Virus record (IMG/VR): IMGVR_UViG_3300042691_013558
Location: 1 to 21,080 of that record
Direction: 5' to 3' (one strand)
From: a virus
Length of the DNA: 21,080 nt
A model generated the notes under the pieces. It had not been told where the DNA came from and did no database searches. It worked only from the letters and a program-made list of their open reading frames with translations. Positions 2,393-16,985 of this stretch are shown in pieces (positions within the stretch are counted from its first letter, which is position 1; every line of letters begins with the position of its first letter). A program made the translations under genes and the position numbers.

Positions 2393-3445
2393 ATGGCAGA
2401 ACAGACAACTCCAAAAGATCCAGCTACAGGCACTAGAGCTGCAGTTCGCAAGCAAGAGAGCCGTAGTAATGACAAATATAACAAGGATCAACACACCTAT
2501 CCATCGGATTTGTTGTCTAATCGAACTGCGTATGGCGGAAACTATGTTATTTTCTTCATCAACGTTGCCGAAGGTGGTAAGCTGGATCAATCTGGTGCCA
2601 AAACTATTTCAGCAGCAGACGTCCCTCCAAGAGAAGCTGGTGAGTTACATGGAAAAGATTATACTAAGGGAGAAGCTGTCACTGGCGCTGGTATTATGGG
2701 TTTGGTTGCTGGTAACGTTGCAGGGACGAGCGGACTAGTAGCAGGTGGTATTTCTGCAGCTGGCGCAGCAGCCATCCCAACAAACGGTACGTTAACACGT
2801 GCAACTAAAAGACTTGAGACAGCCATTGCGCTTTACATGCCGAACCAAGTTGGTATTCGTTACGGTATGCAGTGGGAAGAAGAAAGTATGGGTAACTTAA
2901 TTGCAATGATGGAAGGTGGTGAGGCATTAAAGAATGCTGTCACAGGAGATCTATCTAAAGCATCAAATACAGTTAGAAGTATTGCTGCTAACTTAGCTAT
3001 CAGCGCTGGAACTCCAGGCGCAGGTGCCATTGCTCGTGGCGGTGGTGTTGCTGCTAACCCAAGAAAAGAACAAGTGTTTAAAGGTGTTGACTATCGTTCC
3101 TTTCAATTTAACTATCAGTTCTATCCTAAGAGTAGCACTGAAGCTAATAAGGTTATGGAAATTATTCATGCGTTTAAGTACCACATGCATCCAGAGTTTA
3201 AAGACGATAAAGGTTTTTTGTATACTTACCCTTCAGAATTTGATATTATCTACTACAACGGTGGTAGCGAGAACACCAATTTACATAAGCACACGTCTTG
3301 CGTTTTAAAAGAGATGAACGTAAACTACACACCACAAGGGCAGTTCAATGCCTTTTCAGATGGTACTCCAATGCAAATTAACGTAGACATGACGTTCTTA
3401 GAGTTGGCTCTATTGACAAAAGATTCTATCGACAAGGGCATGTAA
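2393..3445 (+). CDS. 48: Baseplate tail tube cap (gp48-like)
   Basis: The 350-residue product is close to T4 gp48 (364 aa). The C-terminal third carries the tube-like signature of the gp48/gp54 pair: NPRKEQVFKGVDYRSFQFNY (about 222-241), FYPKSSTEANKVMEII, then a helix and a FDIIYYNGG to VNYTPQGQFNAF stretch. In T4, gp48 binds the gp27 hub and carries gp54 and the tail tube. The N-terminus is hydrophilic and Lys-rich. About residues 98-130 form a long Gly/Ala/Val-rich low-complexity segment that looks membrane-like but lies inside a virion protein. This is the first gene of the rightward block; its TAA overlaps the gp53 ATG (TAATG). Confidence 0.82.
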   Translation: MAEQTTPKDPATGTRAAVRKQESRSNDKYNKDQHTYPSDLLSNRTAYGGNYVIFFINVAEGGKLDQSGAKTISAADVPPREAGELHGKDYTKGEAVTGAGIMGLVAGNVAGTSGLVAGGISAAGAAAIPTNGTLTRATKRLETAIALYMPNQVGIRYGMQWEEESMGNLIAMMEGGEALKNAVTGDLSKASNTVRSIAANLAISAGTPGAGAIARGGGVAANPRKEQVFKGVDYRSFQFNYQFYPKSSTEANKVMEIIHAFKYHMHPEFKDDKGFLYTYPSEFDIIYYNGGSENTNLHKHTSCVLKEMNVNYTPQGQFNAFSDGTPMQINVDMTFLELALLTKDSIDKGM

Positions 3446-3972
3446 TGACATACTTTACAAAATTTCCTCAGATCTATTACGACTTCAAAGTTGGTGGAGT
3501 AAATGATCCATCTACTTTGATGGTTATTAGAGATATTACGCACAACGTTCGCATTAGAAAAGAAGTTCTATCCAACGTTGTTCTATATGACTACTATCAT
3601 ATTCAAGACGGTGAAACTCCAGAAATCATTTCTGAGAAAGTTTACGGTAGCCCTCTTTATCATTGGGTTATTATGATGAGCAATGAAAGGTTTGATTATA
3701 TTGATGACTTTCCTTTAAGCGCAGCAGCTTTGGAAGTTCACATCGATAAGTTGTATGGTGCCAACAGAAATGCTGTACGCCATTACGTATATGATGGCTT
3801 AATAGTTAACTCTGATTATCCTGGGGCAACCTCTGTAAGTAATGCAGACTATGAATATGCACGCAATGAACGTAAGGCTAGAATTAAACTTATCAAGCCT
3901 TCTTTACTACAACAAATTTTAAGAGAATATGATGGAGCTTTTACCCAAGGATTAATTCCTAAGGTTGCATAA
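3445..3972 (+). CDS. 53: Baseplate wedge protein gp53
   Basis: The 175-residue product resembles T4 gp53 (196 aa): an N-terminal YFTKFPQIYYDF, an ITHNVRIRKEVLSN segment, then the LysM-like core EIISEKVYGSPLYHWVIMMS (about 59-78), directly comparable to the GNPQLYWVLLMCND region of T4 gp53. The C-terminus KIKLIKPSLLQQILREY-type helix also matches. In T4, gp53 clamps adjacent wedges around the hub. Its ATG overlaps the gp48 stop by one base, suggesting translational coupling, and the gp27 gene starts 2 bases after its stop. Confidence 0.85.
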   Translation: MTYFTKFPQIYYDFKVGGVNDPSTLMVIRDITHNVRIRKEVLSNVVLYDYYHIQDGETPEIISEKVYGSPLYHWVIMMSNERFDYIDDFPLSAAALEVHIDKLYGANRNAVRHYVYDGLIVNSDYPGATSVSNADYEYARNERKARIKLIKPSLLQQILREYDGAFTQGLIPKVA

Positions 3973-3974
3973 TT

Positions 3975-5294
3975 ATGGCAGAATCTGAAAATAAAAATAA
4001 CAAAATTTTACGTGACCCCAACATTCTTAGAAGTGCTGGGGATATAACTGTTGAGAAAATTGTCATCACATCAAGTAAAGGTGTGAAACTTGATGTAGTG
4101 AATCAAATGATGCAGATTCAAATTTATGAGGACATGTTTCAGACATTTACTTCTGGTAACATCGTTCTTGATGATTCTCTTGACCTAATTAACTTCTTCC
4201 CATTTATTGGTGAAGAATATCTTGAGTTAGACTTAAGAACACCAACCTTTAGTGAGGACGGAAAGAAAATTACTGGCAAGTTTTACATCTACAAAATGAC
4301 TGATCGATATAAGCATAAAGAAAAGGCAGTATACTATACTCTACACTTTATCAGTATCGAGGCATTGGTAGATATGAACATAAGATTTTCAAGAGCATTT
4401 GAGGGGTCACCATCTGACTTGGTTGATAAATTAGTCAGTAGTGATGACGGTATGAGATCCGCCAAGAAAATTGTTATTAAAGAACCTACTACTAACAAGA
4501 TTAAATTTATTGCATCTAATTGGAACCCATCACGTTGTCTATTGTTTGTCACCAAAGCAGCACAAAATGATATGCGTTCCAATTATTTATTTTTCGAGAA
4601 CAGAGATGGTTTCGTATTTTCTACACCAAACTATTTGTACAATTTACAACCTGTTGCTCAAAATTTTACATATTCAGCCAAAGACCGTAATATAGAAACT
4701 AGTGGTTCTTCAACTAAAGATTTGAACTACGACTATACTCGTATTCATGATTACAAATTACCAGTTGGTTTCAACTTTATTGATAGAGTTGCCAACGGTA
4801 TGTATGGTTCACGTATGACTACGCATGATTTGGTTACCAAGAAATACTCTAGTACAGTTTACTATGCTCCAACTGATTGGGAAAAACATCCACACCTAAA
4901 CAAGTATCCTATATGGAGTAAAAATCTAGCAACATCTACTTCTGCAGTTCAGATTGTAGAGCCAAAACATTACGGCATCTATAATGGGTTTGGAGATATT
5001 ACAAACACCAAGAACAATCTTTCCCGTATATCAATGATGAAACAGTTCGAGGGATTTAAATTGCAGATTAAAGTTAGCGGTAGAACTGATTATACTGTTG
5101 GTATGAAAGTGACAGTACAGTTACCTTCTATTGAACCAGCAAATGAGACAGATAGTGCTCAAAGCATTGAGGACAAGATGTTCTCTGGTACATATATTAT
5201 ATGTGCGATTAACCATAACATTAAACCAGATAAACATGAATGTTATATGGAGCTTGTAAAAGACTCTCTTATTTTTGATTTGAACGGAGGCTAA
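3975..5294 (+). CDS. 27: Baseplate central hub protein (gp27-like)
   Basis: The 439-residue product fits the gp27/VgrG-N hub family (T4 gp27 is 391 aa). Typical features are an N-terminal beta domain (DITVEKIVITSSKG, then IQIYEDMFQTFTSGNIVLDD at about 46-65), a second tube-like domain around GKFYIYKMTDRYKHKEKAVY (about 102-121), a RFSRAFEGSPSDLVDKLV helix, a WNPSRCLLFVTKAAQ helix, and a C-terminal barrel with VGMKVTVQLPS and SGTYIICAINHNI. Gp27 trimers form the torus that joins the six-fold tube to the three-fold gp5 spike. It lies immediately before gp5, its partner, and 2 bases after gp53; in T4 gp27 and gp5 are far apart. Confidence 0.85.
   Translation: MAESENKNNKILRDPNILRSAGDITVEKIVITSSKGVKLDVVNQMMQIQIYEDMFQTFTSGNIVLDDSLDLINFFPFIGEEYLELDLRTPTFSEDGKKITGKFYIYKMTDRYKHKEKAVYYTLHFISIEALVDMNIRFSRAFEGSPSDLVDKLVSSDDGMRSAKKIVIKEPTTNKIKFIASNWNPSRCLLFVTKAAQNDMRSNYLFFENRDGFVFSTPNYLYNLQPVAQNFTYSAKDRNIETSGSSTKDLNYDYTRIHDYKLPVGFNFIDRVANGMYGSRMTTHDLVTKKYSSTVYYAPTDWEKHPHLNKYPIWSKNLATSTSAVQIVEPKHYGIYNGFGDITNTKNNLSRISMMKQFEGFKLQIKVSGRTDYTVGMKVTVQLPSIEPANETDSAQSIEDKMFSGTYIICAINHNIKPDKHECYMELVKDSLIFDLNGG
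5286..5290 (+). promoter_or_regulatory. 5: Strong ribosome binding site of the spike gene
   Basis: GGAGG lies 9 bases before the ATG at 5300 and overlaps the last codons of the hub gene. It is the most consensus-like Shine-Dalgarno in the window. Confidence 0.6.
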
Positions 5295-5299
5295 TAATA

Positions 5300-7891
5300 A
5301 TGTCTAAATTTTTTACTGGAGTAGTTGAGGATCGAATGGATCCACTGAAGATCGGACGCTGTAAAGTTCGAGTTGTTGGTGTGCATACGCATGTAAAGTC
5401 AGTTCTCCCAACTTCTGATTTACCATGGGCGATGCCTATGCAACCATTAACATCTGCTGGCGTCAGTGGTGTTGGTCACACACCAATGGGTCCAGTTGAA
5501 GGTACATGGGTTATTGTATTTTTCAACGATATGGATTTACAGTTCCCAATTATGATGGGTTCTCTAGGTGGTATCCCTCAGAAAGATGGTACCGTAGAAG
5601 AAGATGAAGGAACATTAAAACTAACACGTGATGGTGATGATGGTCCATCCGATAGTTCAGCTAAAGTTGATTCTAATGGCGATATTGTCAGAGACGGTGA
5701 CACCACCCCACCCCCTAAGAAAGTTGAACCTCCTGCAAAAGATCAAGTTGTTAGTGGTGACACGAGTGGCTTAGGTAAGCCAGCTAATCAGTACACTACT
5801 GTTTCTCAACGCTGTATTGATTTACTACATCAGTATGAAGGTCTTGCTAAAAAGATTGGTAACAACCAAGTTCAAGCATATCCAGATCCAGGCACTGGCG
5901 CTGAACCATGGACTATCGGATATGGTACTACGTACTTAGATATCGACAAAGGCATCAAGGTTAAACAAGGTGACATCATCTCTATCGCTAAAGCTGAAGA
6001 ACTATTTGCGCAGCAGTTAAAGAAGACGTTTCTACCACAAGTAACTAAGCGTATTCGTTCTGTGGTTACACAATCAATGATTGATGCGTGCGTATCTTAC
6101 ACTTACAATGCAGGTGGCGGTGGTTTTGGTTCGTCTCCGATGTTGGCATTTATCAATCAAGGTAAATATAAAGAAGCAGCAACAGCATTTCTCGATAGCC
6201 GAGTTACTGCTGGAGGTAGGGTTCTTGCTGGTCTCGTTAAGCGTAGAAAAGCAGAATCAGAATTATTTCTTAAAGACGGAATCCCAGGAGAAGGTAAAAG
6301 TGTCACACCACCAGCAGAAGAAGATCCTACACAAACAGCACCTGTTGGATCGCCTAACTCAGACGGGTCTACATCAGATGGTAAAGGTGGAGAAGACCAA
6401 GTTGGATTTAAAGATCCAAACAAGAAGTATCCAAAATATATTGCCGAACCAGATACAAATAGATTGGCTCGGCACGAACAGATAGACAAGACTATTGTTA
6501 TAAAGAAAGAAGCAGCCTTAATTAAAGGTGTGCCTGTTGCTGGAGGTAAAGCATGGACTCAATCAGATAATCCGTTTAATGCCGACTATCCATTTAACCA
6601 TGTGTATGAATCTGAGTCTGGGCATGTTATGGAGTTTGATGATACTCCAAATGCTGAACGTGTGCACCTTTACCATAAAGCAGGTACATATACTGAGATA
6701 GATCATAACGGTACACGTGTTAACCGTATTGTTGGTGATGGTTATGAAATCTATGAGCGTAATGGTTACATCTTTGTTAATGGTAATTACAATTTAACTG
6801 CAGCTGGTAACGGTAATGTTCTTTTCCAAAGCGGAATGAATCTATACGTTGGTGGTAATGCGCAAATCTCAGTTGCTGGTGATTGTAAAATAAACTCTAC
6901 TGGTGCTCTTGATATTAAAGGTAAAACTGTTAACATTGAATCTGAGGGTGCAGTTAACCTCAAAGCTGGCGCAGGATTAAATATAGAATCTAGCGCTGCA
7001 ATGAATCTTAAAGGTGGCGGTGCTTTAGCAATGTCAGCTGGTGGTTCGATGAACATTAAAGCTGGCGGTACTATGAATATGGATTATAGTCGTGGTAATT
7101 TCGGACAAGGTGCGAGTTCAGCAGGAGGTGCATCTAGTGCCAATGCTGGTCCAGCTGCAACTAAAGGCGAAGGTGCTCCAGAGCATGAAGCACTAAAGGT
7201 TAACTCTAGAAAAGATAGAGCAGCTGCCGAGTATGAGACTGAAGACGATGGCGATTCGACTGAGTTTACAAAGAATGCTACGGCAAATGGTTCTATTGAT
7301 CCAACTGATCAAACTCCAGATCAGGCAGCAGAAGATACTGCAAAACCAAAGAATAATGATAAACAACCAGCTGGCGCTAAGTGTGACGAAATCTATGGTA
7401 TGACATCATACCCTAATAACATGAAGCTATCACCTAACTTTACAGTTGGAGCATTGACTAAGGGCGGTACTCGCCCTATTAGCGACACTAAAGGATTGTC
7501 TGCAAAAGAAATTGCATGTAACTTAAAGGGGTTGTGCGAGCAAGTGCTTGAGCCAATTAAGAAGGCATATCCATCAATGACTATTACTAGTGGTTATCGT
7601 CGTCCAGGTGATGTTGGTGCGTCAAGCGCTACTTCACAACACTATACTGGAGAAGCTGTTGATATTGTTATCTCAGGATTTAATCGTAAGAAACACTACG
7701 AAGCTATTCAGCAGATCCAACAATTGGTTCCATATGATCAGTTGATTCTTGAGTATGATGGTTCCAGTACAGTTTGGATACACTGTTCGTTTAAGTATAG
7801 TGGAAACAGAAAACAACACTTTACAATGTATCACCATAAACGTAAAGGTAACATAGGTGAATTCCTTTATTTGGCTGAGGGGCAATCTTGA
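5300..7891 (+). CDS. 5: Central spike: OB-fold, GH24 lysozyme, beta-helix and C-terminal M15 peptidase (gp5-like)
   Basis: At 863 residues it is far longer than T4 gp5 (575). In order I see: an OB-fold (about 1-93; FTGVVEDRMDPLKIGRCKVR, ending IMMGSLGG); an acidic/Pro linker; a GH24 lysozyme (about 168-325) with Glu180 (YEG), Asp196 (YPDP) and Thr205 (WTIGYGTT) matching the T4 lysozyme Glu11/Asp20/Thr26 triad; another linker; a triple beta-helix needle (about 390-605) with repeated Asn-Leu-x-Gly strands; an Ala/Gly/Asp-rich linker; and a C-terminal zinc peptidase of M15 type (about 705-863). The peptidase has SGYRRPGD (764-771), HYTGEAVD giving ligands His781 and Asp788, and WIHCSF giving His828. 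Gp5 trimers puncture the outer membrane and cut peptidoglycan; the peptidase would add peptide cleavage. T4 gp5 ends at the needle, so the extra domain is notable. Confidence 0.9.
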   Translation: MSKFFTGVVEDRMDPLKIGRCKVRVVGVHTHVKSVLPTSDLPWAMPMQPLTSAGVSGVGHTPMGPVEGTWVIVFFNDMDLQFPIMMGSLGGIPQKDGTVEEDEGTLKLTRDGDDGPSDSSAKVDSNGDIVRDGDTTPPPKKVEPPAKDQVVSGDTSGLGKPANQYTTVSQRCIDLLHQYEGLAKKIGNNQVQAYPDPGTGAEPWTIGYGTTYLDIDKGIKVKQGDIISIAKAEELFAQQLKKTFLPQVTKRIRSVVTQSMIDACVSYTYNAGGGGFGSSPMLAFINQGKYKEAATAFLDSRVTAGGRVLAGLVKRRKAESELFLKDGIPGEGKSVTPPAEEDPTQTAPVGSPNSDGSTSDGKGGEDQVGFKDPNKKYPKYIAEPDTNRLARHEQIDKTIVIKKEAALIKGVPVAGGKAWTQSDNPFNADYPFNHVYESESGHVMEFDDTPNAERVHLYHKAGTYTEIDHNGTRVNRIVGDGYEIYERNGYIFVNGNYNLTAAGNGNVLFQSGMNLYVGGNAQISVAGDCKINSTGALDIKGKTVNIESEGAVNLKAGAGLNIESSAAMNLKGGGALAMSAGGSMNIKAGGTMNMDYSRGNFGQGASSAGGASSANAGPAATKGEGAPEHEALKVNSRKDRAAAEYETEDDGDSTEFTKNATANGSIDPTDQTPDQAAEDTAKPKNNDKQPAGAKCDEIYGMTSYPNNMKLSPNFTVGALTKGGTRPISDTKGLSAKEIACNLKGLCEQVLEPIKKAYPSMTITSGYRRPGDVGASSATSQHYTGEAVDIVISGFNRKKHYEAIQQIQQLVPYDQLILEYDGSSTVWIHCSFKYSGNRKQHFTMYHHKRKGNIGEFLYLAEGQS
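7877..7882 (+). promoter_or_regulatory. Ribosome binding site supporting a TTG start
   Basis: GAGGGG lies 5 bases before the TTG at 7888-7890, inside the last codons of the spike gene. No ATG or GTG is placed as well, so it decides the start of the next gene. Confidence 0.5.
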
Positions 7892-8541
7892 TATACGAAG
7901 TTTCTTACTACAACTATCCTCAGTCTAATCCTGAGTATGCAGTACCGCTTATTATTGGTGGCGGTGAAGGTGCTGCTGAAGAACGTTTTCTTTCTGTGTA
8001 TGAATTGCTTGATGAAAACTGGGAAGTTACTGTTACATTTTTTGAAGAAGAAGGCGGTGCAATGGGCGCACCTCCAACCAAGTCATTAACAAGCCCAACT
8101 AAAGTGTTATCTTGGTCTATCGATCCACCATCAACTTCTATACAAGCTATTGTAGATAACACAGCAATACAAGGTAAGATTACGTTTAAGGGTACATGGA
8201 CTAAAAGATTCGAACAAAGACAGTTTGACTTTAGAATGAATGATGAGACGCTTCTGCTTGATGGAGACGTTACTATAATTGGGGACAACTACTATGGTCC
8301 AATCAATTTTATTCCTGACACAAGAGTTTACCTAGAGTCAACTTTTAGTGTAAACGTAGAAAGTACCCCAGTTATTGCAGGAGTGCCGTCTGGAGGTAAG
8401 GTTACTACAAAATTCGAGCGTAAACAAACTGTTCTGAATAATTGGGACGCAAACAGAAGAAGACTTCTTCAACTTAGAGATAACCCAAAACGCAAAGAAC
8501 AAACGGATGCCGATAAGTTTAACACAATAGCAAATTCATAA
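7888..8541 (+). CDS. Unknown protein between spike and PAAR tip, TTG start
   Basis: I do not recognise this 217-residue product. It starts at TTG, overlapping the spike stop codon as TTGA, with GAGGGG 5 bases upstream. The N-terminal part (about 1-60) has Tyr- and Glu-rich strands (YYNYPQSNPEYAVPLI, then ENWEVTVTFFEEEGG); the middle is beta-strand-like with TLLLDGDVTIIGDNYYGPIN (about 121-140); the last 45 residues are basic and helical (NNWDANRRRLLQLRDNPKRK). There is no signal peptide, membrane helix or catalytic motif. Placement between gp5 and the PAAR gene suggests a hub component, a spike accessory or a chaperone, by context only. It ends 9 bases before the PAAR start. Confidence 0.7.
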   Translation: MIYEVSYYNYPQSNPEYAVPLIIGGGEGAAEERFLSVYELLDENWEVTVTFFEEEGGAMGAPPTKSLTSPTKVLSWSIDPPSTSIQAIVDNTAIQGKITFKGTWTKRFEQRQFDFRMNDETLLLDGDVTIIGDNYYGPINFIPDTRVYLESTFSVNVESTPVIAGVPSGGKVTTKFERKQTVLNNWDANRRRLLQLRDNPKRKEQTDADKFNTIANS

Positions 8542-8550
8542 GGAAACGAT

Positions 8551-8847
8551 ATGGCAGCAGTAGCATTGGCAGGTGGAAAATCTTCAGGGCATGGATGCTT
8601 TCCTCCAGTATCGCCCATCGGAGGATACTCAACTAAAACTTCTGTAGAAGGACGTCTAGTTCAATTGGTTGGTATAACCAACTATGGTCCAATCCATAAC
8701 TGCGGTAAATCTGTCCATGCATGCGGTCCAGTGGTTTCTGGTTCCAGAAAAAACTTTGTGGACGGTGCTCCTGTGGCTAGAATTGGTGATCCAATTGCTT
8801 GTGGAGATATGGTTGCTAAAGGTGCTTCTAAGACTTTCTTTGCATAA
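8551..8847 (+). CDS. 5.4: PAAR-repeat spike tip protein (gp5.4-like)
   Basis: The 98-residue product equals T4 gp5.4 (97 aa) in size and shows the PAAR pattern: GHGCFPP (13-19), IHNCGKSVHACGPVVSGSRK (about 48-67), then the diagnostic VDGAPVARIGDPIACGD (about 70-86) and a final ASKTFFA. His and Cys residues at these places are candidate zinc ligands. PAAR proteins fold as a sharp cone on the end of the gp5/VgrG beta-helix. An AAGGAA lies 5 bases before the ATG. It comes two genes after gp5, separated by the unknown 217-aa gene, and is followed by gp25 after a 20-base gap. Confidence 0.88.
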   Translation: MAAVALAGGKSSGHGCFPPVSPIGGYSTKTSVEGRLVQLVGITNYGPIHNCGKSVHACGPVVSGSRKNFVDGAPVARIGDPIACGDMVAKGASKTFFA

Positions 8848-8867: not shown

Positions 8868-9260
8868 ATGGCGATAAACACAAGAGTCTTTACAGACATA
8901 GACCTAAACTTCAGACCCCATCCTCTAACTGGCGATATCGTCAAGAGGGTGAATGATAGCGCAATCAAAGCATCTGTGCGCAATCTGGTTCTAACAAACA
9001 ACTACGAGCGACCATTTCATAGCGATATTGGTGCCCCATTGAGAAGAATGTTGTTTGAGTTACCTTCTCCTCTTACCAAGTCTATGATTGAGAAAACAAT
9101 TACAGATTTGATAAACACATATGAACCAAGAGTAGTGCTTACTCAAGTTCAAGTAACTTATTCACATGATACCTATGAAGTCTACGTTAGAATAGAATAT
9201 AAAATAGTCAACACTTCTACCCAGCAGACGGTAGAAGTAACCCTAGAGAGAACCCGATAA
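8868..9260 (+). CDS. 25: Baseplate wedge protein gp25 (GPW/gp25 family)
   Basis: The 130-residue product matches T4 gp25 (132 aa). It shows the family pattern: FTDIDLNFRPHPLTGDIVKR (8-27), a SVRNLVLTNNYERPFHSDIG block (about 36-55) containing the conserved N-Y-E-R-P-F-x-x-x-x-G, then LRRMLFELPSPLTK, and YEPRVVLTQVQV. In T4, gp25 sits in the inner baseplate with gp6 and gp53 and is thought to start sheath assembly. The stop overlaps the gp6 ATG as TAATG, the standard 25-6 pairing of wedge operons. Confidence 0.92.
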   Translation: MAINTRVFTDIDLNFRPHPLTGDIVKRVNDSAIKASVRNLVLTNNYERPFHSDIGAPLRRMLFELPSPLTKSMIEKTITDLINTYEPRVVLTQVQVTYSHDTYEVYVRIEYKIVNTSTQQTVEVTLERTR

Positions 9261-11110
9261 TGGCAATAGATAACAATCGAATTAAGGTAAACGAGTTAGA
9301 CTTTGATAACATTAAGTCTAACTTAAAGAACTACCTAAGAGGGCAGAATCAATTCTCTGATTATGATTTTGATGGCGCAGGTATGAGTATTCTGTTGGAT
9401 GTTCTGGCATACAATACTCACTACAACGCTTTGTATACAAACTTAGCCATTAACGAAATGTTCTTAGACTCCGCTTCTAAGCGTAGTAGTCTTGCTTCTA
9501 TTTCTGCACTAATGGGTTATACGCCAAAGTCTATTACGTCATCTGCAGCTATTATTGATTTAACCTTATCAAACGTTCCAGGCAATCCTGCCACAGTAAC
9601 TTTACCATCGAATCAACCATTTCAAGCCAGCGTGATTGATGCGACGGGAGCAGCAACTGGTGTTGTGTTCTATACAAGAAGTAGTTATACTGCAGCAAGA
9701 TCTTCTATTAACACATATGTGTTTAAGAATATTGCGATCACAGAAGGTAAACCAATGACATATAGGTATGTCGTTGCAGATAATGTTCGTTACATTATTC
9801 CTAATGCTGATGTCGATATGTCCACTCTTGTGGTTCGTGTACAAGAGTCAGCTGAAGTGGGTACATTCACTTCATATAATTTAAATACCTCCGTCGTTGA
9901 TTCAGTTGCAGCAAGTAGAGTTTATTACACCAAAGAAATTGAAGAGGGGTTGTATGAAGTATATTTTGGCGATGGCATCGTTTCACACAAACCATCTAAT
10001 GGTAATGTTGTAAACTTTGACTACTTTATCTCTAAAGGTAACAGCGCAAACGGTGCCAGAATATTTAATTACCAAGGGTTTACTGCTGGTGGAACAACTT
10101 CAGTGCTAACTGTTCAGCCAGCTGGTAATGGATCAGATCCAGAGACAAATGATAGCATTCGTTTTAATGCACCAAAACAATATGCTGCTCAAAATAGAAC
10201 TGTTACCGCAGAAGATTATAAAACATTAATACCTAGATTGTATCCTAATACAGAAACTATTTCTGTATGGGGTGGTGAAGAAAATGATCCACCTATCTAC
10301 GGTAAAGTCTTTATTTGCATTAAGCCACTAAGTGGAGCAGTTTTATCACAGGCTGCTAAAAATTATGTAACAGATGAATTACTATCGTCCCGCAATGTGG
10401 TTTCTATTACACCTACTATTGTAGATCCAAGATATCTAAACATTCTTCTGGATGTTTCTTTCTATTACAATCCATTAAAAACACGTTACTCTGCTGATGG
10501 TTTAACATCTTTGGTGCGTCAGGTTATTGCAGACTATAACGATACAGATATTAAAAACTTTGACTCTGTATTCAGATTGTCTAAGTTACAACGATTGATT
10601 GACACATCAGAACAAGCTATTACTAATAGCGTGGTTAAAGTTAAATTAAGTTATGACTTAGAACCTAATTATAACTTTGAATCTTCTTATGTTATTAATC
10701 TACATAACCCGATCTATAATGAGCCAGGAAGTACAGCAGGTAGTAACGTAAACTCCACTGGGTTTACTGTAGCAGGAAATACAAACACTTTCTTCTTCGA
10801 TGATGACACACAAGGTAAACTGCGAATGTATTATCTGTCATCATCTGGTACAAAAATATACACTAACAATAATGCAGGAACTATTGACTATGTAAACGGT
10901 AAAATTATTGTTGGCAGTATCAATATTGCTGCAGCGGTAAACAACATAATCACTTTCGTTATTGAACCTTCCTCTTATGACGTCATCTCTGTACGAAATC
11001 AATTAATAACTATTGCTGAAGATAAGCTGATAGTATACCCAATCGTTGACAAAATTTCCTCTGGTGAATTTGTTAGCGGAAGTAACTACATCTTTACAGC
11101 TAACAGGTAA
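9260..11110 (+). CDS. 6: Baseplate wedge protein gp6 (baseplate J-like)
   Basis: The 616-residue product is comparable to T4 gp6 (660). The N-terminus shows the gp6 signature: LDFDNIKSNLKNYLRGQNQF (14-33), a DYDFDGAGMSILLDVLAYNT segment, then THYNALYTNLAINEMFLDSA. A baseplate-J-like centre follows, with YEVYFGDGIVSHKPSNGNVV (about 231-250) and NAPKQYAAQNRTVTAEDYKT (about 299-318). The C-terminus has extra beta-rich sequence from about residue 480. Gp6 dimers form the ring that binds the wedges together. Its ATG overlaps the gp25 stop, and the gp7-like gene starts 5 bases after its TAA. Confidence 0.92.
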   Translation: MAIDNNRIKVNELDFDNIKSNLKNYLRGQNQFSDYDFDGAGMSILLDVLAYNTHYNALYTNLAINEMFLDSASKRSSLASISALMGYTPKSITSSAAIIDLTLSNVPGNPATVTLPSNQPFQASVIDATGAATGVVFYTRSSYTAARSSINTYVFKNIAITEGKPMTYRYVVADNVRYIIPNADVDMSTLVVRVQESAEVGTFTSYNLNTSVVDSVAASRVYYTKEIEEGLYEVYFGDGIVSHKPSNGNVVNFDYFISKGNSANGARIFNYQGFTAGGTTSVLTVQPAGNGSDPETNDSIRFNAPKQYAAQNRTVTAEDYKTLIPRLYPNTETISVWGGEENDPPIYGKVFICIKPLSGAVLSQAAKNYVTDELLSSRNVVSITPTIVDPRYLNILLDVSFYYNPLKTRYSADGLTSLVRQVIADYNDTDIKNFDSVFRLSKLQRLIDTSEQAITNSVVKVKLSYDLEPNYNFESSYVINLHNPIYNEPGSTAGSNVNSTGFTVAGNTNTFFFDDDTQGKLRMYYLSSSGTKIYTNNNAGTIDYVNGKIIVGSINIAAAVNNIITFVIEPSSYDVISVRNQLITIAEDKLIVYPIVDKISSGEFVSGSNYIFTANR

Positions 11111-11115
11111 TATAA

Positions 11116-14100
11116 ATGGCTAAGGTAAAAGCAAAAGTATCTGCCGTTGTAGGTAAACAACTCCCAGAGTTTGTAAGAGAAGACCACCCATATTTTATTA
11201 ACTTCTTAGAAGCATACTATGAGTGGTTGGAAACTAATTACAGACTTAGAGATTTAGAAAACCTAGCCAGCGCAGATTCAACGTTAGATGAGTATGTAGA
11301 GTATTTTGCTAACCAGTTTATGGCATTGATGCCAAAGACCACGTTAGGCGATCGCAGACTTATGCTACAACATGCTAAGGAACTTTACTTAGCCAAAGGT
11401 ACTCCGAAATCATATGAACTTTTGTTCAGATTAATGTTTAACGAAGTACCTCAACAAATCTACTATCCAAAGGTAGACATGTTGAGAGCTTCTGATGGTA
11501 AGTGGGATCAAAGTACAATCATGCGTGGTTATGATGTACTTGGAGATTCCTTTAACATTGTTGGGCAATTGGTGTTTCAGGATTCTACTGGATTCGGAGA
11601 TGTCGGTGCTCAGGCACGTGTAGAATCAGTCATCAAATATAACGTAGGTACTAGGTTAGTAACAGAGATTACATTAAGCGCACCAAGTATCATCGGTGAG
11701 TTCCAAAGTAATCAAATCGTTAGAGGAACTAGTACAGTTGATGGTACTCAGGTTTCGGTATTATTAATTCCTATTGTTAACAATATTACTGTTACAAATA
11801 AAGGTAAGTATTACGATACTGGGTTTCCTATTAACGTTGACGAAGGAAGTGGTGTTGACTTTGCTGGCGAGATTAGTACAGTCTCTACTGGTAGCGTAGA
11901 TCATATACATGTGGTAGATGGTGGAGATGGCCACTATGTTGGACAGCCTATTCTATTTAATAATAACAATGCTGGTTTCGGTGGAACTTCTTCTGTTGAT
12001 AGCGCTATCGCTGAAGTCTCAGAGGTTGACTATGGGTCTATACTCTTAGAGTCTGCAGTTCGTTTTACTCCATTAGCCTTTGTTACTACTGGGCAAGAGT
12101 TAGCGTTTAAAGGTAGACAATATCGTGTAACAGCTAATGGCACTCTTGGTAGTACTGGTCCAGTTCATACGTATGGAACATATGGAAACGGAACTGCATT
12201 TCTTAAGTATGTTGGTAAACCATCTTCCAATTTAACAAATGAAAATGGTACTAAAACATCATTAGAACAATTCCGTATTTACAGAACTGATGCTAATGAT
12301 AATTATAATTTTTCGACACCACCTGTAACCAATAATCTTTACGGATCAATCAAAGCAGTTCGAATGATAAACAAGGGTAAGCACTACAACAGCTTACCAC
12401 AAGTTTTTGTCATGACGGACTTTATCACATCGATCTTTTCACAAGCCAACAGTAATATCGTTACAGTTACAACTGAATTCACACATGAGTTGATAGAAGG
12501 TCAACAGATTATTATCAACGGATCTGTAAATAGAATCGTTGACGGAACATTCAACGTCAACTCCATCGTAAATAGTTATACGTTTACATATCGTTCTTCT
12601 CAGGTGTTTGGTATTGTTGGAACTCTTGCTGCACCGAATAAGAAACAAACTTTATATGCAGATAAATCTATAAACGTAGGTGCCCAGCGTAAACAGGGTA
12701 CAGTAAAACTTATTGCAACAAGTAATGAAATTGGTGCAGTATCCAAAGCTATCATTAACAACTTCGGCTACTATTATGATACTGCGAAACTTTCTGCAAC
12801 TGCACCTTTACTTGTAGATAACATAAATGGTTCTTTTGTTGTCGGGGAAACTGTTTCTCTAGCACCTCAATCTTTAGCCACCGAACTGTATGGCAATGAA
12901 CTTTTATTGGAGAATGGTGATAAATTTCTTATCGAATCCCAGTCAAGTGCATCTGGCACCTTCTCTTCTTATACAGCTGCTACGAATCTAGTAAAACTTT
13001 TCCCCGCAAGCGCAAGACAAGCTATCTTAATGGAAGATGGTAGCGGTAATTTATTGACTGAAGAATTCTCTAGTTTCACTGTTGGTAGCGCATGGACACC
13101 ACTAACAGAAAAGAAAATCGGCGATATAGTTAATTACAACGGTGTTGTTTATGAAGTTATAACACTAGGAACTACAGGTAACGTTGCACCTACGCATATT
13201 CGTGGAATTGAAACCAATGGTGGATTGAAGCTAATGGTTGTTAGTGGTGCGCTTAGTTCTGCACGCAATACATTAGTCGGAGAACGTTCTGGTGTATTCA
13301 CTAAGAATAGCGTTCTAATTGGTAACACTAGCAATGCAACTGCAAGAATTGTAGACAGTGGCGTGGCTGGTGTAGTTGCCAGAATTGGTGCTGTCGGTGT
13401 TAACACAGGTAACTTTACAAACTCAGACGGTAAGATATCAGATGGGTCTAAGAAACTGCAGGATAGTTTCTATTACCAAGATTACTCATACGTTATTCGT
13501 ATCGGTCAGTCTGTTAAGAATTATCGTGATGCGGTTAAGAAATTATTACACCCAGTTGGTGTTGCATTATTCGGTGAAGTTAGTTTGACGAATCAGGTTC
13601 AGGCATTGATGCGTCTGATGAATCAAGAAAAGGCTATTCTTTCTAATATTATTAATTTGAACTTAAATGTTCAGACATTAGCCATTGGTAATTGGCAATA
13701 TCCATCTAATAGATTATTGATCGAGAACTCTGATAAACTAGCTACGATAGAACTAGAAGGTGGTATTAGAGTTGCCATAACTCTTGAAGATAACAATAAT
13801 CTGTTATTTGAAGATGGGTCAATTTTTGTAACAGAGCAAAGCGGAGAAGAAGGTAGAAGTCTATTAACTGAAACTGGATATAAGTTTGTTGCTGAAGATC
13901 AACAATCAATATTTTTCCCTGAACACATACTAAGCGAAACCTACGGATTTTTCCGTATGGAAAATGATGACACTCATGCTAAGAGTAGAAATCCAGATGT
14001 AAGAAAAGAGCAGTGGATCATTAGTCTAGAAGATTTTGTTCCTTCGTTTGTTGATGCCGATGTTCTTAAACTTGAAGATGCATTAGAAGATGGTGATGGT

Positions 14101-15531
14101 ATTCCAATCGGAGAAGATAATAACTTGCTATTGGAAGATGGTGGTCGCTTCTTGAAGCAACAGCAACTATCCAAGCCTGCACCAAGTATGCGTATATTGC
14201 AGTCTGAAATGCTGCCTCCAGTTATTATACCAGAATTGCCATTAAACACAATTCACTTACTGGAGATGTCACCATCATTATTTAAAGAGATTGTGTTTGG
14301 TTTACATTCTAAAGTGAATATGGGGTATTCTGATGGCGATCTTCTTCTTGAAGACGACAGCGGAAAACTTCTATATGAAGATGGTAGCAGTATCAGTGAC
14401 AGACAGTCTTATCCAAATATTCCTAACGACAAATCAGTTGCCAACATAGTTGTTGAGGTGGTTCCAGGTAACGTTGAATTAGACAATCTACTGCTTGAGA
14501 ATGGTGAGTTCTTTTTAGTGGAAGACAGATACAAGGCTGGTGTAAATATTAACACTACTATCAATTCTGCTTTGGCTGGTACTAGAACAATTACTGGAAG
14601 TGCACCTAGAGCGCAGTGGACCAATGAGTTAACTACTGGTATGGTTATTAAAGAAGGTATTCAGTTTACGTTCACGCAGTTGTATGGCTTTGGAACTGGC
14701 GTAGTTACTGCTGTAGACTTTAATTTAGACCCAGTAACCTTTACTATCGAGTTAGATTCTCCACTACCGCAAACTCGTGCTACTACAGACTTTGTTAGTT
14801 TAGAATTCCGTCTGCCGAATTACAAGATACAAACCGATCATCAGTCTCAGTTCTTGTATAGATCAAACTTCTCATCATCGATAATGCCAATGGTCAGCGT
14901 AAATCCTATCACTGGAGAACAAACCACAGAAAAGATGGAAGTTCGTGTCCAGTCAAGAGCTGGATTTAAACCGAATGGAACAAGTATGTCGTTCCTAGAG
15001 CAAAGAAAATTCGGCTTTGCTCCATATGTTTATGGCACTAAGGGATCTATATCTTTAGTTCCAGGTAATACCTATATTGGCGTATCTTGGGAATCTTCTA
15101 CTGAAGTTTTGACAAAGCAGGTTCTAAACAATGCAGGTAAGGCATATGAGGTTGTCGTTGCTGGCACCACGGGTGTAGTTGCCCCGACCCATACCACAGG
15201 TTCTTTGGTAAATGGTACTGCAGAATTACAATACATTGGACCAGCGAAACTAAATAAACAATACCCATCTGGCTTTACAGGCGCATGGGATGACCAGTAC
15301 CCTAATCCTAACAGGGCGTACTGGAACAACGAAGGCTTGTTACTAGAAAGTGGCGATTCGTTGTTGAATGAGAGCAATGATGCTCATCTGTTAGAATTTA
15401 TGGAATCTTCTGGCGACACGCAAATCAAAGATTTTGCCCATGTTACCATTTATGACATCATAAATAGAAAGAATAAGAAAACTAATTTCGCAGTGGGTTC
15501 ATACATAGAAATCCTGAAATCTGCTGCATAA
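11116..15531 (+). CDS. 7: Large baseplate wedge protein, gp7-like, with internal repeats
   Basis: This 1471-residue protein occupies the gp7 slot between gp6 and gp8 (T4 gp7 is 1032 aa). Its first about 110 residues (LPEFVREDHPYFINFLEAYY, then a KELYLAKGTPKSYELLFRLM helix) resemble the late part of T4 gp7, where a FEAFCEAYIQYLSDGYG stretch and a STKGIEASYKFLFKVLYNEE helix occur. A later piece with YSYVIRIGQSVKNYRDAVKK and LHPVG (about 790-816) resembles the T4 segment around FVHPVGFGF. The T4 N-terminal half appears to be missing. Beta-rich sequence fills the gap and the C-terminal half, with nine LLLEDG-type repeats and three GTTG-APTH modules. Gp7 links wedge subunits in T4. The gp7 assignment rests on position and remembered segments. 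Confidence 0.75.
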   Translation: MAKVKAKVSAVVGKQLPEFVREDHPYFINFLEAYYEWLETNYRLRDLENLASADSTLDEYVEYFANQFMALMPKTTLGDRRLMLQHAKELYLAKGTPKSYELLFRLMFNEVPQQIYYPKVDMLRASDGKWDQSTIMRGYDVLGDSFNIVGQLVFQDSTGFGDVGAQARVESVIKYNVGTRLVTEITLSAPSIIGEFQSNQIVRGTSTVDGTQVSVLLIPIVNNITVTNKGKYYDTGFPINVDEGSGVDFAGEISTVSTGSVDHIHVVDGGDGHYVGQPILFNNNNAGFGGTSSVDSAIAEVSEVDYGSILLESAVRFTPLAFVTTGQELAFKGRQYRVTANGTLGSTGPVHTYGTYGNGTAFLKYVGKPSSNLTNENGTKTSLEQFRIYRTDANDNYNFSTPPVTNNLYGSIKAVRMINKGKHYNSLPQVFVMTDFITSIFSQANSNIVTVTTEFTHELIEGQQIIINGSVNRIVDGTFNVNSIVNSYTFTYRSSQVFGIVGTLAAPNKKQTLYADKSINVGAQRKQGTVKLIATSNEIGAVSKAIINNFGYYYDTAKLSATAPLLVDNINGSFVVGETVSLAPQSLATELYGNELLLENGDKFLIESQSSASGTFSSYTAATNLVKLFPASARQAILMEDGSGNLLTEEFSSFTVGSAWTPLTEKKIGDIVNYNGVVYEVITLGTTGNVAPTHIRGIETNGGLKLMVVSGALSSARNTLVGERSGVFTKNSVLIGNTSNATARIVDSGVAGVVARIGAVGVNTGNFTNSDGKISDGSKKLQDSFYYQDYSYVIRIGQSVKNYRDAVKKLLHPVGVALFGEVSLTNQVQALMRLMNQEKAILSNIINLNLNVQTLAIGNWQYPSNRLLIENSDKLATIELEGGIRVAITLEDNNNLLFEDGSIFVTEQSGEEGRSLLTETGYKFVAEDQQSIFFPEHILSETYGFFRMENDDTHAKSRNPDVRKEQWIISLEDFVPSFVDADVLKLEDALEDGDGIPIGEDNNLLLEDGGRFLKQQQLSKPAPSMRILQSEMLPPVIIPELPLNTIHLLEMSPSLFKEIVFGLHSKVNMGYSDGDLLLEDDSGKLLYEDGSSISDRQSYPNIPNDKSVANIVVEVVPGNVELDNLLLENGEFFLVEDRYKAGVNINTTINSALAGTRTITGSAPRAQWTNELTTGMVIKEGIQFTFTQLYGFGTGVVTAVDFNLDPVTFTIELDSPLPQTRATTDFVSLEFRLPNYKIQTDHQSQFLYRSNFSSSIMPMVSVNPITGEQTTEKMEVRVQSRAGFKPNGTSMSFLEQRKFGFAPYVYGTKGSISLVPGNTYIGVSWESSTEVLTKQVLNNAGKAYEVVVAGTTGVVAPTHTTGSLVNGTAELQYIGPAKLNKQYPSGFTGAWDDQYPNPNRAYWNNEGLLLESGDSLLNESNDAHLLEFMESSGDTQIKDFAHVTIYDIINRKNKKTNFAVGSYIEILKSAA
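12106..15243 (+). repeat. Three copies of a GTTG-APTH module in the gp7-like protein
   Basis: A module of about 35-40 residues, Y-x-V-...-G-T-T/L-G-x-x-x-P-T/V-H-...-G-...-N-G-x-x-x-L-x-Y/V-x-G, occurs at residues about 332-368, 676-709 and 1338-1376. The second and third share YEV and GTTG with APTH; the first is diverged (TLGSTGPVHTYG). Similar modules are common in phage fibre and baseplate proteins. Bases between the copies belong to unrelated parts of the same gene. Confidence 0.6.
12901..15366 (+). repeat. Nine LLLEDG-type coding repeats in the gp7-like protein
   Basis: The translated motif L-L-L/I/F-E-D/N-x-(G/S)-x-x-x-L/F-x-x-E recurs near residues 596 (LLLENGDKFLIE), 637 (ILMEDGSGNLLTEE), 867 (LLIENSDKL), 896 (LLFEDGSIFVTE), 917 (SLLTETGYKFVAED), 1004 (LLLEDGGRFLK), 1076 (LLLEDDSGKLLYEDG), 1125 (LLLENGEFFLVED) and 1408 (LLLESGDSLLNE). 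Each spans 12-15 residues and looks like a beta-hairpin with an acidic turn. Spacing is irregular, so this is a dispersed motif, not a tandem array. Confidence 0.75.
15459..15466 (+). promoter_or_regulatory. 8: Candidate late promoter for gp8
   Basis: CATAAATA fits NATAAATA and lies inside the 3' end of the gp7-like gene, 91 bases before the gp8 start codon, leaving space for a leader. It also encodes ordinary residues, so a chance match is possible. Confidence 0.35.
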
Positions 15532-15557: not shown

Positions 15558-16985
15558 GTGGCTGCAATTATTACAAATAAATTCCGCATTCATAATGCGC
15601 AGTCGTTCAAAGAAGGGTTCTCAGAAGGCGCAGATACTAAGATTTATCTGGGCATCGGAAGACCACAATCATGGGCGAATGAAAACTCACCAGATACACC
15701 TTACGACACAGTAGGCGATGAGTATTACAACTGGGACGATATGCTTGCTTTAAAACGCATTCAGTCTACAGATGTTTCACTAGCTGTTGTTCGTCGTAAC
15801 TGGGTTTCTGGTAAATTCTATGACATCTATCGTCATGACTATAATGGTATCACAACTGGCGTAAACTTGGACTCTGGCGCAGCGACTGCACCTGCATCTT
15901 TGTTTGATGCTAACTTCTACGTTATTACTGACGAATACAACATTTACAAATGTATTCGTAACATTAACCCAGCCACTGGTTTGGTAATTCCTTCTACGGC
16001 AAAACCAACTGGTACATCTACTGCTGTTATTACAACTTCTGACGGTTACGTTTGGAAGTATATGTACACTGTTGCTCCAGCTGACGTTTTGAAGTTCGTG
16101 TCTACAGACTTTGTTCCAATTAAAACATTGGGTACCAGTCCAGGATCTACCGATGCATATTACAATCAGTTCTTGATTGAGCAAGCTGCTGTTGATGGTT
16201 CTATTGAAAATATTGTCGTCACTAACTTTGGTAATAATTACACAGCTGAGCAAGGTCCTGTCAACGTTACTATTAGTGGTGACGGCACTGGTGCCACAGC
16301 AACTGTAACTAGAGACTCCAATAACCGTATCGTTCGTGTCAACATTGGCGAAAAGGGCACTGGTTACACATGGGCACGCATCACAATTGGACCACCAGCT
16401 ACTGGTAGCAATAATGCTACCGCAGAGGCTATTATCTCTCCAAAAGGTGGGCATGGTAAAGACGCTGTTGAAGAACTAGGTGGATTCTACGTTATGATGA
16501 ACGTTCGTTTAGAATATGATGATGGCGCTGGCGACTTCCCTATCGATAACGACTACCGTCGTATCTGTTTGATTCGTGATCCATTTAACTTTGGTACTAC
16601 CGTTGTATCTTCTTCACAAACTTTGCTTTCAAATAGAACTGCTAGTTACACTGCAACAAGTGGAACGTTTTCTATTGATGAAGAAATTTCTGGTGGAACT
16701 ACTGGTGCTAAAGGTCGTATCGTTTCATTGAACACTGGTTCTACACCGAAAACCCTACGTTATATCCAAACTAAGAGTGACGCAAATTCTACAACTACTG
16801 GTCGTTTGTTCCAAGTTGCCGAAACTATAACTGGTTCTGTTAGCGGAGCAACAGGTACTATTACTGCTATCGCTGATCCAGATGTGGTTGCTGACAGTGG
16901 TGATATTATCTACGTTGAAAACCGTCGTCCTATTAACCGTGCTGGTGACCAGATCGAAGACATCAAGATCATTGTTGAAATGTAA
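15558..16985 (+). CDS. 8: Baseplate wedge protein gp8, enlarged
   Basis: The 475-residue product starts at GTG. Its N-terminus (ITNKFRIHNAQSFKEGFSEG) and the following YLGIGRPQSWANENSPDTPY (about 30-49) are typical of gp8 of T4 relatives, as is the GGHGKDAVEELGGFYVMMNV block (about 298-317) followed by DYRRICLIRDPFNFG. T4 gp8 has 334 residues. The extra length lies in a beta-rich insert around 220-290 with Gly-rich turns (SGDGTGATATV, GEKGTGYTWARITI), and in a later pair of similar repeats (about 361-392 and 418-438) sharing the pattern T-x-(E)-x-I-(S/T)-G-x-(T/S)-x-G-A-x-G. Gp8 dimers bind gp7 and gp10 in the T4 wedge. The gene follows the gp7-like gene by 26 bases. Confidence 0.88.
   Translation: MAAIITNKFRIHNAQSFKEGFSEGADTKIYLGIGRPQSWANENSPDTPYDTVGDEYYNWDDMLALKRIQSTDVSLAVVRRNWVSGKFYDIYRHDYNGITTGVNLDSGAATAPASLFDANFYVITDEYNIYKCIRNINPATGLVIPSTAKPTGTSTAVITTSDGYVWKYMYTVAPADVLKFVSTDFVPIKTLGTSPGSTDAYYNQFLIEQAAVDGSIENIVVTNFGNNYTAEQGPVNVTISGDGTGATATVTRDSNNRIVRVNIGEKGTGYTWARITIGPPATGSNNATAEAIISPKGGHGKDAVEELGGFYVMMNVRLEYDDGAGDFPIDNDYRRICLIRDPFNFGTTVVSSSQTLLSNRTASYTATSGTFSIDEEISGGTTGAKGRIVSLNTGSTPKTLRYIQTKSDANSTTTGRLFQVAETITGSVSGATGTITAIADPDVVADSGDIIYVENRRPINRAGDQIEDIKIIVEM

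Follow-up and report, generated by a model that had tools for sequence, protein, structure and literature searches.

A T4-type gp5 spike predicted to join a base glycosidase to a conserved M15 peptidase domain beyond the needle

The textbook T4 puncturing device carries one wall enzyme. The gp5 protein of T4 comprises domains at residues 1-129, 174-339 and 389-575 and ends at residue 575 (PMC4576200). The tip made of gp5C and the PAAR protein gp5.4 goes ahead of the tube across the outer membrane and into the periplasm, the gp5 lysozyme then helps the tube past the peptidoglycan, and gp5 is cleaved at position 351, in the linker between lysozyme and needle (PMC7600766). According to a 2017 review, a single lytic domain is found in most virion-associated lysins, and endopeptidases were rare among the lysins of this type from phages of Gram-negative bacteria (PMC5380687). 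The hub protein gp15 of Anabaena phage A-1(L) bears endoglucanase and peptidase domains shown to lyse host cells (PMC10966104), and WHIX effectors of type VI secretion systems can combine a peptidase with a glycosidase (PMC12135965).

The window, i.e. the whole 21,080-base stretch of a viral record analysed here, encodes a spike that follows the T4 gp5 plan and extends it. An intact frame opening with ATG at 5300 and running to 7891 on the plus strand specifies a gp5-like central spike or tail lysozyme of 863 residues, ordered as OB fold, GH24 lysozyme, needle, linker and M15 domain. The OB fold, GH24-type lysozyme and beta-helix are collinear with those of T4 gp5, at nearly equal residue positions, whereas the 92-residue linker and 171-residue M15 domain that come after the needle are additions. 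One baseplate protein is predicted to carry a glycosidase and a peptidase, which would act on different classes of bond. This recalls A-1(L) gp15, although the A-1(L) enzymes are on the hub and those of the window on the spike. Type VI spikes (evolved VgrG/VgrG3, effector-bearing PAAR, WHIX) also carry wall enzymes on the spike or tip protein, and a VgrG3-like muramidase occurs in gp5 relatives of the window. However, these spikes are interbacterial weapons with immunity proteins, whereas the window's is a phage baseplate spike with its glycosidase between OB fold and needle and its peptidase at the C terminus.

Judged from its sequence and neighbours, the 5300-7891 frame is the T4-type gp5 of a gp54/gp53/gp5/PAAR/gp25/gp6 baseplate cluster. 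Pfam and PHROG matches place homologues of the tail cap, gp53, PAAR, gp25, gp6 and gp8 around it, which are neighbours of the same kind as in T4, where a PAAR gene (gp5.4) is likewise near downstream. The plus strand encodes a gp54/gp48-like tail tube cap (2393-3445; T4_tail_cap, 9.4e-6; phrog_230, 2e-59), a gp53-like baseplate wedge (3445-3972; Phage_gp53, 3.7e-9), a 98-residue PAAR (gp5.4-like) needle tip (8551-8847; PAAR_motif, 6.2e-8; phrog_281, 1.3e-19) and the baseplate wedge proteins gp25 (8868-9260; GPW_gp25, 3.4e-12) and gp6 (9260-11110; Gp6-like, 3.4e-20). A phrog_350 tail protein (3975-5294) directly precedes gp5, and a large wedge protein (11116-15531) and a gp8-like protein (15558-16985) lie farther along. 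Between gp5 and PAAR, an ORF of 217 residues with a TTG start (7888-8541, plus strand) has no Pfam, PHROG or NCBIfam match and has homologues at the same place in the nearest relatives (L006-L013 and L104, 39-99.5% identity). It is missing in relatives whose gp5 directly adjoins PAAR, and a tip adaptor or chaperone is a possible function. The minus-strand genes at 44-2340 comprise a GTA-holin-like gene (44-538), a tail-tube protein gene (516-1295), a gene without assignment (1292-1891) and a TnsA-N endonuclease-like gene (1903-2340).

The OB-fold domain (residues 1-105, 5300-5614, plus strand; Gp5_OB, 8.9e-22) matches the T4 gp5 structures 1pdl/1k28 over residues 4-100 in a PDB sequence search and is expected to sit in a gp27-like hub. 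It is joined to the lysozyme by a low-complexity linker (5615-5794), which is 17 codons shorter in L006, whose gp5 is otherwise identical at the protein level. The GH24 domain (residues 166-330, 5795-6289, plus strand) matches Pfam Phage_lysozyme over residues 190-319 (2.2e-27, 96 bits), phrog_7 (endolysin) over residues 161-345 (6e-40) and PDB lysozymes down to 7e-23 (6et6). The catalytic residues named in the initial annotation are in place, namely E180 (5837-5839), D196 (5885-5887) and T205 (5912-5914). Among 24 GH24 domains of relatives, E180 and D196 are each kept in 23/23 (one gap each) and T205 in 24/24, and the pairwise dN/dS of this domain against L007, L009 and L008 is 0.09, 0.053 and 0.034. 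On these matches and residues, the gp5 lysozyme is a true GH24 domain. A near-copy of the window's gp5 (L010:5980-8557) has its frame broken within GH24 (5980-6612 and 6476-8557), which is compatible with a sequencing error as well as with a true break.

A second low-complexity linker (residues 331-395, 6290-6484, plus strand; 82% small, polar or charged residues) occupies the site equivalent to the proteolytic cleavage of T4 gp5; in some relatives, gp5 is encoded by two genes that part at this site. The triple-stranded beta-helix needle (residues 396-600, 6485-7099, plus strand) aligns with the T4-type gp5 9f4a over residues 421-607 in a PDB sequence search (7.8e-36 for the whole protein), and phrog_430, a gp5 family, spans residues 412-849 (8e-93, whole protein), by which this C-terminal needle is homologous to the gp5C triple beta-helix. 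Beyond it, the flexible low-complexity linker (residues 601-692, 7100-7375, plus strand) consists for 90% of GASTNPDEKQ residues and is among the quickest-evolving segments in the more diverged pairs by pairwise dN/dS.

The chain ends with the M15 zinc-peptidase domain (residues 693-863, 7376-7888, plus strand). Peptidase_M15_3 matches residues 748-819 of the whole protein at 3.3e-4 with 21.2 bits, slightly below the 23.2-bit cut-off, and the isolated domain at 24.6 bits, above it; the same profile is matched by 27 of 44 aligned domains (the window's own counted), and phrog_894 (endolysin) matches residues 704-848 at 8e-22. The zinc ligands H781 (7640-7642), D788 (7661-7663) and H828 (7781-7783), carried by the HxxGxAxD and WxH motifs, are kept in all 60 non-identical domains from related phages, as are N741 and G784, and the presence of R767, H781, G784, A786, D788, W826 and H828 at these positions was verified. 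A chance motif was rejected, the SG[FYW]R / HxxGxAxD / WxH signature appearing in 0 of 200,000 shuffles. An AlphaFold2 model of the domain, for which 39 related sequences were supplied, reached a pLDDT of 95.1 and a pTM of 0.90. Its top Foldseek match in the PDB is the Zn DD-peptidase 1LBU (E 1.5e-4), followed by Hedgehogs and, much lower, by the Ply500 and LysB4 endolysins, with TM-scores to known M15 structures that are modest (TMq 0.54 for 1LBU). By profile, residues and model, the C-terminal domain is a true M15-family domain, in agreement with the initial annotation, which thereby withstood both of its own tests, an M15 profile match and a predicted fold that has the His-Asp-His zinc site. 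Its dN/dS against L007, L009 and L008 is 0.034, 0.075 and 0.068; the M15 and GH24 domains are both under strong purifying selection, and this together with residue conservation excludes decayed enzyme copies. The view that a single gp5 chain holds both domains intact, with M15 at the far needle end, thus stands.

Hedgehog proteins, which are structural relatives of M15 and not peptidases, are the nearest PDB sequence matches of the domain, and H781, D788, E818 and H828 fall on the Hedgehog zinc site in this alignment; we take E818 to align with the catalytic glutamate position and the other three with the Hedgehog zinc ligands. An M15-fold domain that is no longer an enzyme could retain such a site because its folding, or its attachment to the wall or a receptor, depends on zinc, and could serve as a cell-wall anchor or as a trimerisation or tip domain, and conservation of the zinc site by itself is also compatible with structural zinc. 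We nevertheless regard this as unlikely. Beyond the zinc ligands, conservation extends to E818 (7751-7753; 59 of 60 domains), the likely general base and a residue that the initial annotation does not mention, and to R767 and Q814 in all rows; furthermore, the top structural match is an active DD-peptidase, and Pfam and PHROG group the domain with peptidases and endolysins.

A needle-only query was used so as to avoid selecting on M15. Among its best 80 matches, M15 is part of the needle ORF in 68 and of a neighbouring ORF in 2, 5 are on truncated contigs and 5 are without M15, of which 3 have little downstream sequence. The needle ORF thus includes M15 at 68 of the 75 untruncated loci, a frequency that describes the group of window-like needles rather than all T4-like phages. 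A scan with whole gp5 gave 79 loci, nearly all complete ones ending in M15, and 207 of 227 needles do so in a set where this figure is inflated, part of it having been gathered with M15 as query. Several rows without M15 on the needle tree are contigs that end early, and a tree-wide count of M15 losses was therefore dropped. The same four-domain chain is found on many independent contigs, which rules out a fusion specific to the window or made by assembly. Far from the non-standard oddity it was first taken for, the fusion is the usual arrangement among related needles.

The isolates with needle and M15 are Cr30 (Caulobacter), pf16 (Pseudomonas), Melnitz (Methylophilales) and BUCT-ZZ01 (Synechococcus), in all of which the domain has been carried unremarked. 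The phrog_430 gp5s of Cr30 and pf16 share the needle with C-terminal M15 but differ from the window's in that no glycosidase is recognised in their slot between OB fold and needle. BUCT-ZZ01 gp5 (38% identity, 76% of the query covered) has the same single chain of OB fold, glycosidase, needle and M15; its glycosidase, however, is GH19 in place of GH24, and this phage has an extra M15 gene, of the same family and annotated as hypothetical (ON615601.1:76718-77248, L249). In the open-access literature, no paper describing M15 on a gp5 spike or needle was found. Proteins of the phrog_430 type bear no annotation beyond 'baseplate hub subunit and tail lysozyme' or 'hypothetical'; should the peptidase be active, they would merit something more exact than 'tail lysozyme' or 'hypothetical protein'. 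Of the two advantages initially suggested for the fusion, a general gain is the better one; a fit to thick or unusual cross-linking has no supporting evidence, the fusion occurring in isolates from Caulobacter, Pseudomonas, Methylophilales and Synechococcus. A genome-contig scan with P0001 gave distant needle matches only, in Marinobacterium/Oceanospirillaceae. A cyanobacterial host, suggested by Kyanoviridae-like relatives, is unsupported: psbA was not found in 18 related records, although this absence is uninformative because BUCT-ZZ01 itself is without psbA.

M15 is found at the needle end in most relatives, as a separate gene adjoining the needle in L129, L150, L159, L167 and L238, and fused to PAAR in L005, L154 and L155 and in the Pseudomonas phages Paride, Illi-2 and Astolliot. 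On the M15 tree, the separate-gene and PAAR-fused forms are interspersed among the needle-fused ones, and the strongest indication that M15 works at the tip comes from these exchanges of the domain between needle end and PAAR. On the other hand, four sampled stand-alone M15 proteins of phages (an annotated endolysin, a pair labelled 'peptidase M15' and an unannotated protein) form their own clade (99) in this unrooted tree, which does not support recruitment from a recent endolysin.

A rival reading gives the domain its main role not in entry but at the end of infection, where a lytic domain on gp5 would stand in for a free endolysin. Related stand-alone M15 endolysins exist, and in the long records examined (119-169 kb, behind L012, L020, L021, L023, L038 and L052) no GH24 and no M15 of this kind was seen outside gp5. 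For the same reason, the two do not look like copies of the phage's lysis enzymes. We consider this role improbable: in many lineages M15 forms part of a structural component of the baseplate, next to the needle or PAAR tip, the stand-alone forms sampled branch apart, BUCT-ZZ01 has its separate second M15 gene, and endolysins from other families may be encoded in the long records.

In L110, L121, L126, L137, L235 and others, gp5 is split into a gene for OB fold and VgrG3-like muramidase and a gene for needle and M15, at the position of the post-assembly cleavage in T4 gp5. It would be conceivable that M15 is a protease acting on a protein substrate, e.g. in gp5 maturation cleavage or on a periplasmic host protein, but we hold this to be very improbable. 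M15 enzymes are known as peptidoglycan peptidases, the split-gene relatives need no cleavage and still keep M15, and T4 gp5 is cleaved although it has no M15. In its favour, the split-gene relatives show that the linker position can be open, and the cleavage of T4 gp5 falls in the linker that joins lysozyme and needle (PMC7600766).

We therefore favour, with a probability of roughly 0.72, a T4-type gp5 spike with two complementary peptidoglycan hydrolases, a peptidase at the tip and a glycosidase at the base, that would puncture the wall with two kinds of cut. When the sheath contracts, the PAAR-tipped trimeric needle would cross the outer membrane, and three M15 domains, on flexible tethers of about 90 residues at the distal needle end, would by homology be the first to reach the periplasm and wall, where they may cut peptide bonds of the stem peptide or cross-link. 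Three GH24 domains near the needle base, behind M15, would cut the glycan. Both cuts together would open the hole for the tail tube, and an attack on both bond types should lower the number of cuts of either kind that the hole requires. We infer the trimeric state, the tip position in the particle, the enzymatic activity, the order of action and the bond specificity; the reading is based on the identity and order of the domains, their conserved catalytic residues, the predicted M15 fold and purifying selection, and also on M15 being kept while the other slot is swapped or lost and being fused to or adjoining the PAAR gene in relatives. Against a need for M15, T4 manages without it. Provided that the tip peptidase is active, many of the T4-like phages in the environment, a large share of them, would enter with two different cuts, division of labour in wall penetration would become testable, and type VI secretion spikes that bear enzymes would have a counterpart among phages.

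The position between OB fold and needle is occupied in relatives by GH24, GH19, a VgrG3-like muramidase, unassigned modules that we call slotA and slotB, or none. Across 227 needles, GH19 was counted 64 times, GH24 62 times, slotA 27 times, slotB 17 times and the VgrG3-like muramidase 16 times, with none in 22, and the slot changed at least 15 times on the needle tree. Where a Pfam match exists, the slot enzymes are wall glycosidases. An AlphaFold2 model of slotA (pLDDT 83) has the lytic transglycosylase MltE as its best match (probability 1.0, best E 0.017). The base slot is modular, and the M15 tip enzyme is less so and largely retained. This pairing of a retained tip peptidase and an exchangeable glycosidase slot is the more interesting result. 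The chances are about even that the spikes of a large, mostly uncultured T4-like group share a fixed plan, in which a largely kept, mobile peptide cutter at the tip is combined with an interchangeable glycan cutter at the base; tip peptide cleavage, and not the lysozyme, would then be the more constant wall step. In this reading, M15 moves among needle, separate gene and PAAR tip, and the base cutters come from several unrelated or distantly related families. An active tip peptidase would then be kept more often than any single lysozyme class. The swappable slot also offers a natural series of combined wall enzymes for purified cell-wall studies.

In L029:5989-8274 and L030:5989-8271, a deletion has removed the half of GH24 to which the catalytic Glu, Asp and Thr belong, and M15 is intact. 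Both enzymes are thus not always needed, because of this deletion and of several gp5s without a slot enzyme; L029 and L030 represent a natural lysozyme-dead gp5 lineage. The slotB module (L047:6295-8079, L066:766-2385) adds several hundred residues to the chain between OB fold and needle, has an ESG...GKYQ-like motif and no Pfam match, and is probably a further module of the lysozyme superfamily. The C-terminal slot has alternatives as well, with GH24 in L150 and L198 and GH19 in L186. In Melnitz (L002:3938-4999), an OB gene with a weak VanY-like match in its slot, VanY being of an M15-type family, is followed by the gene for needle and M15, and this phage possibly has two M15-type peptidases.
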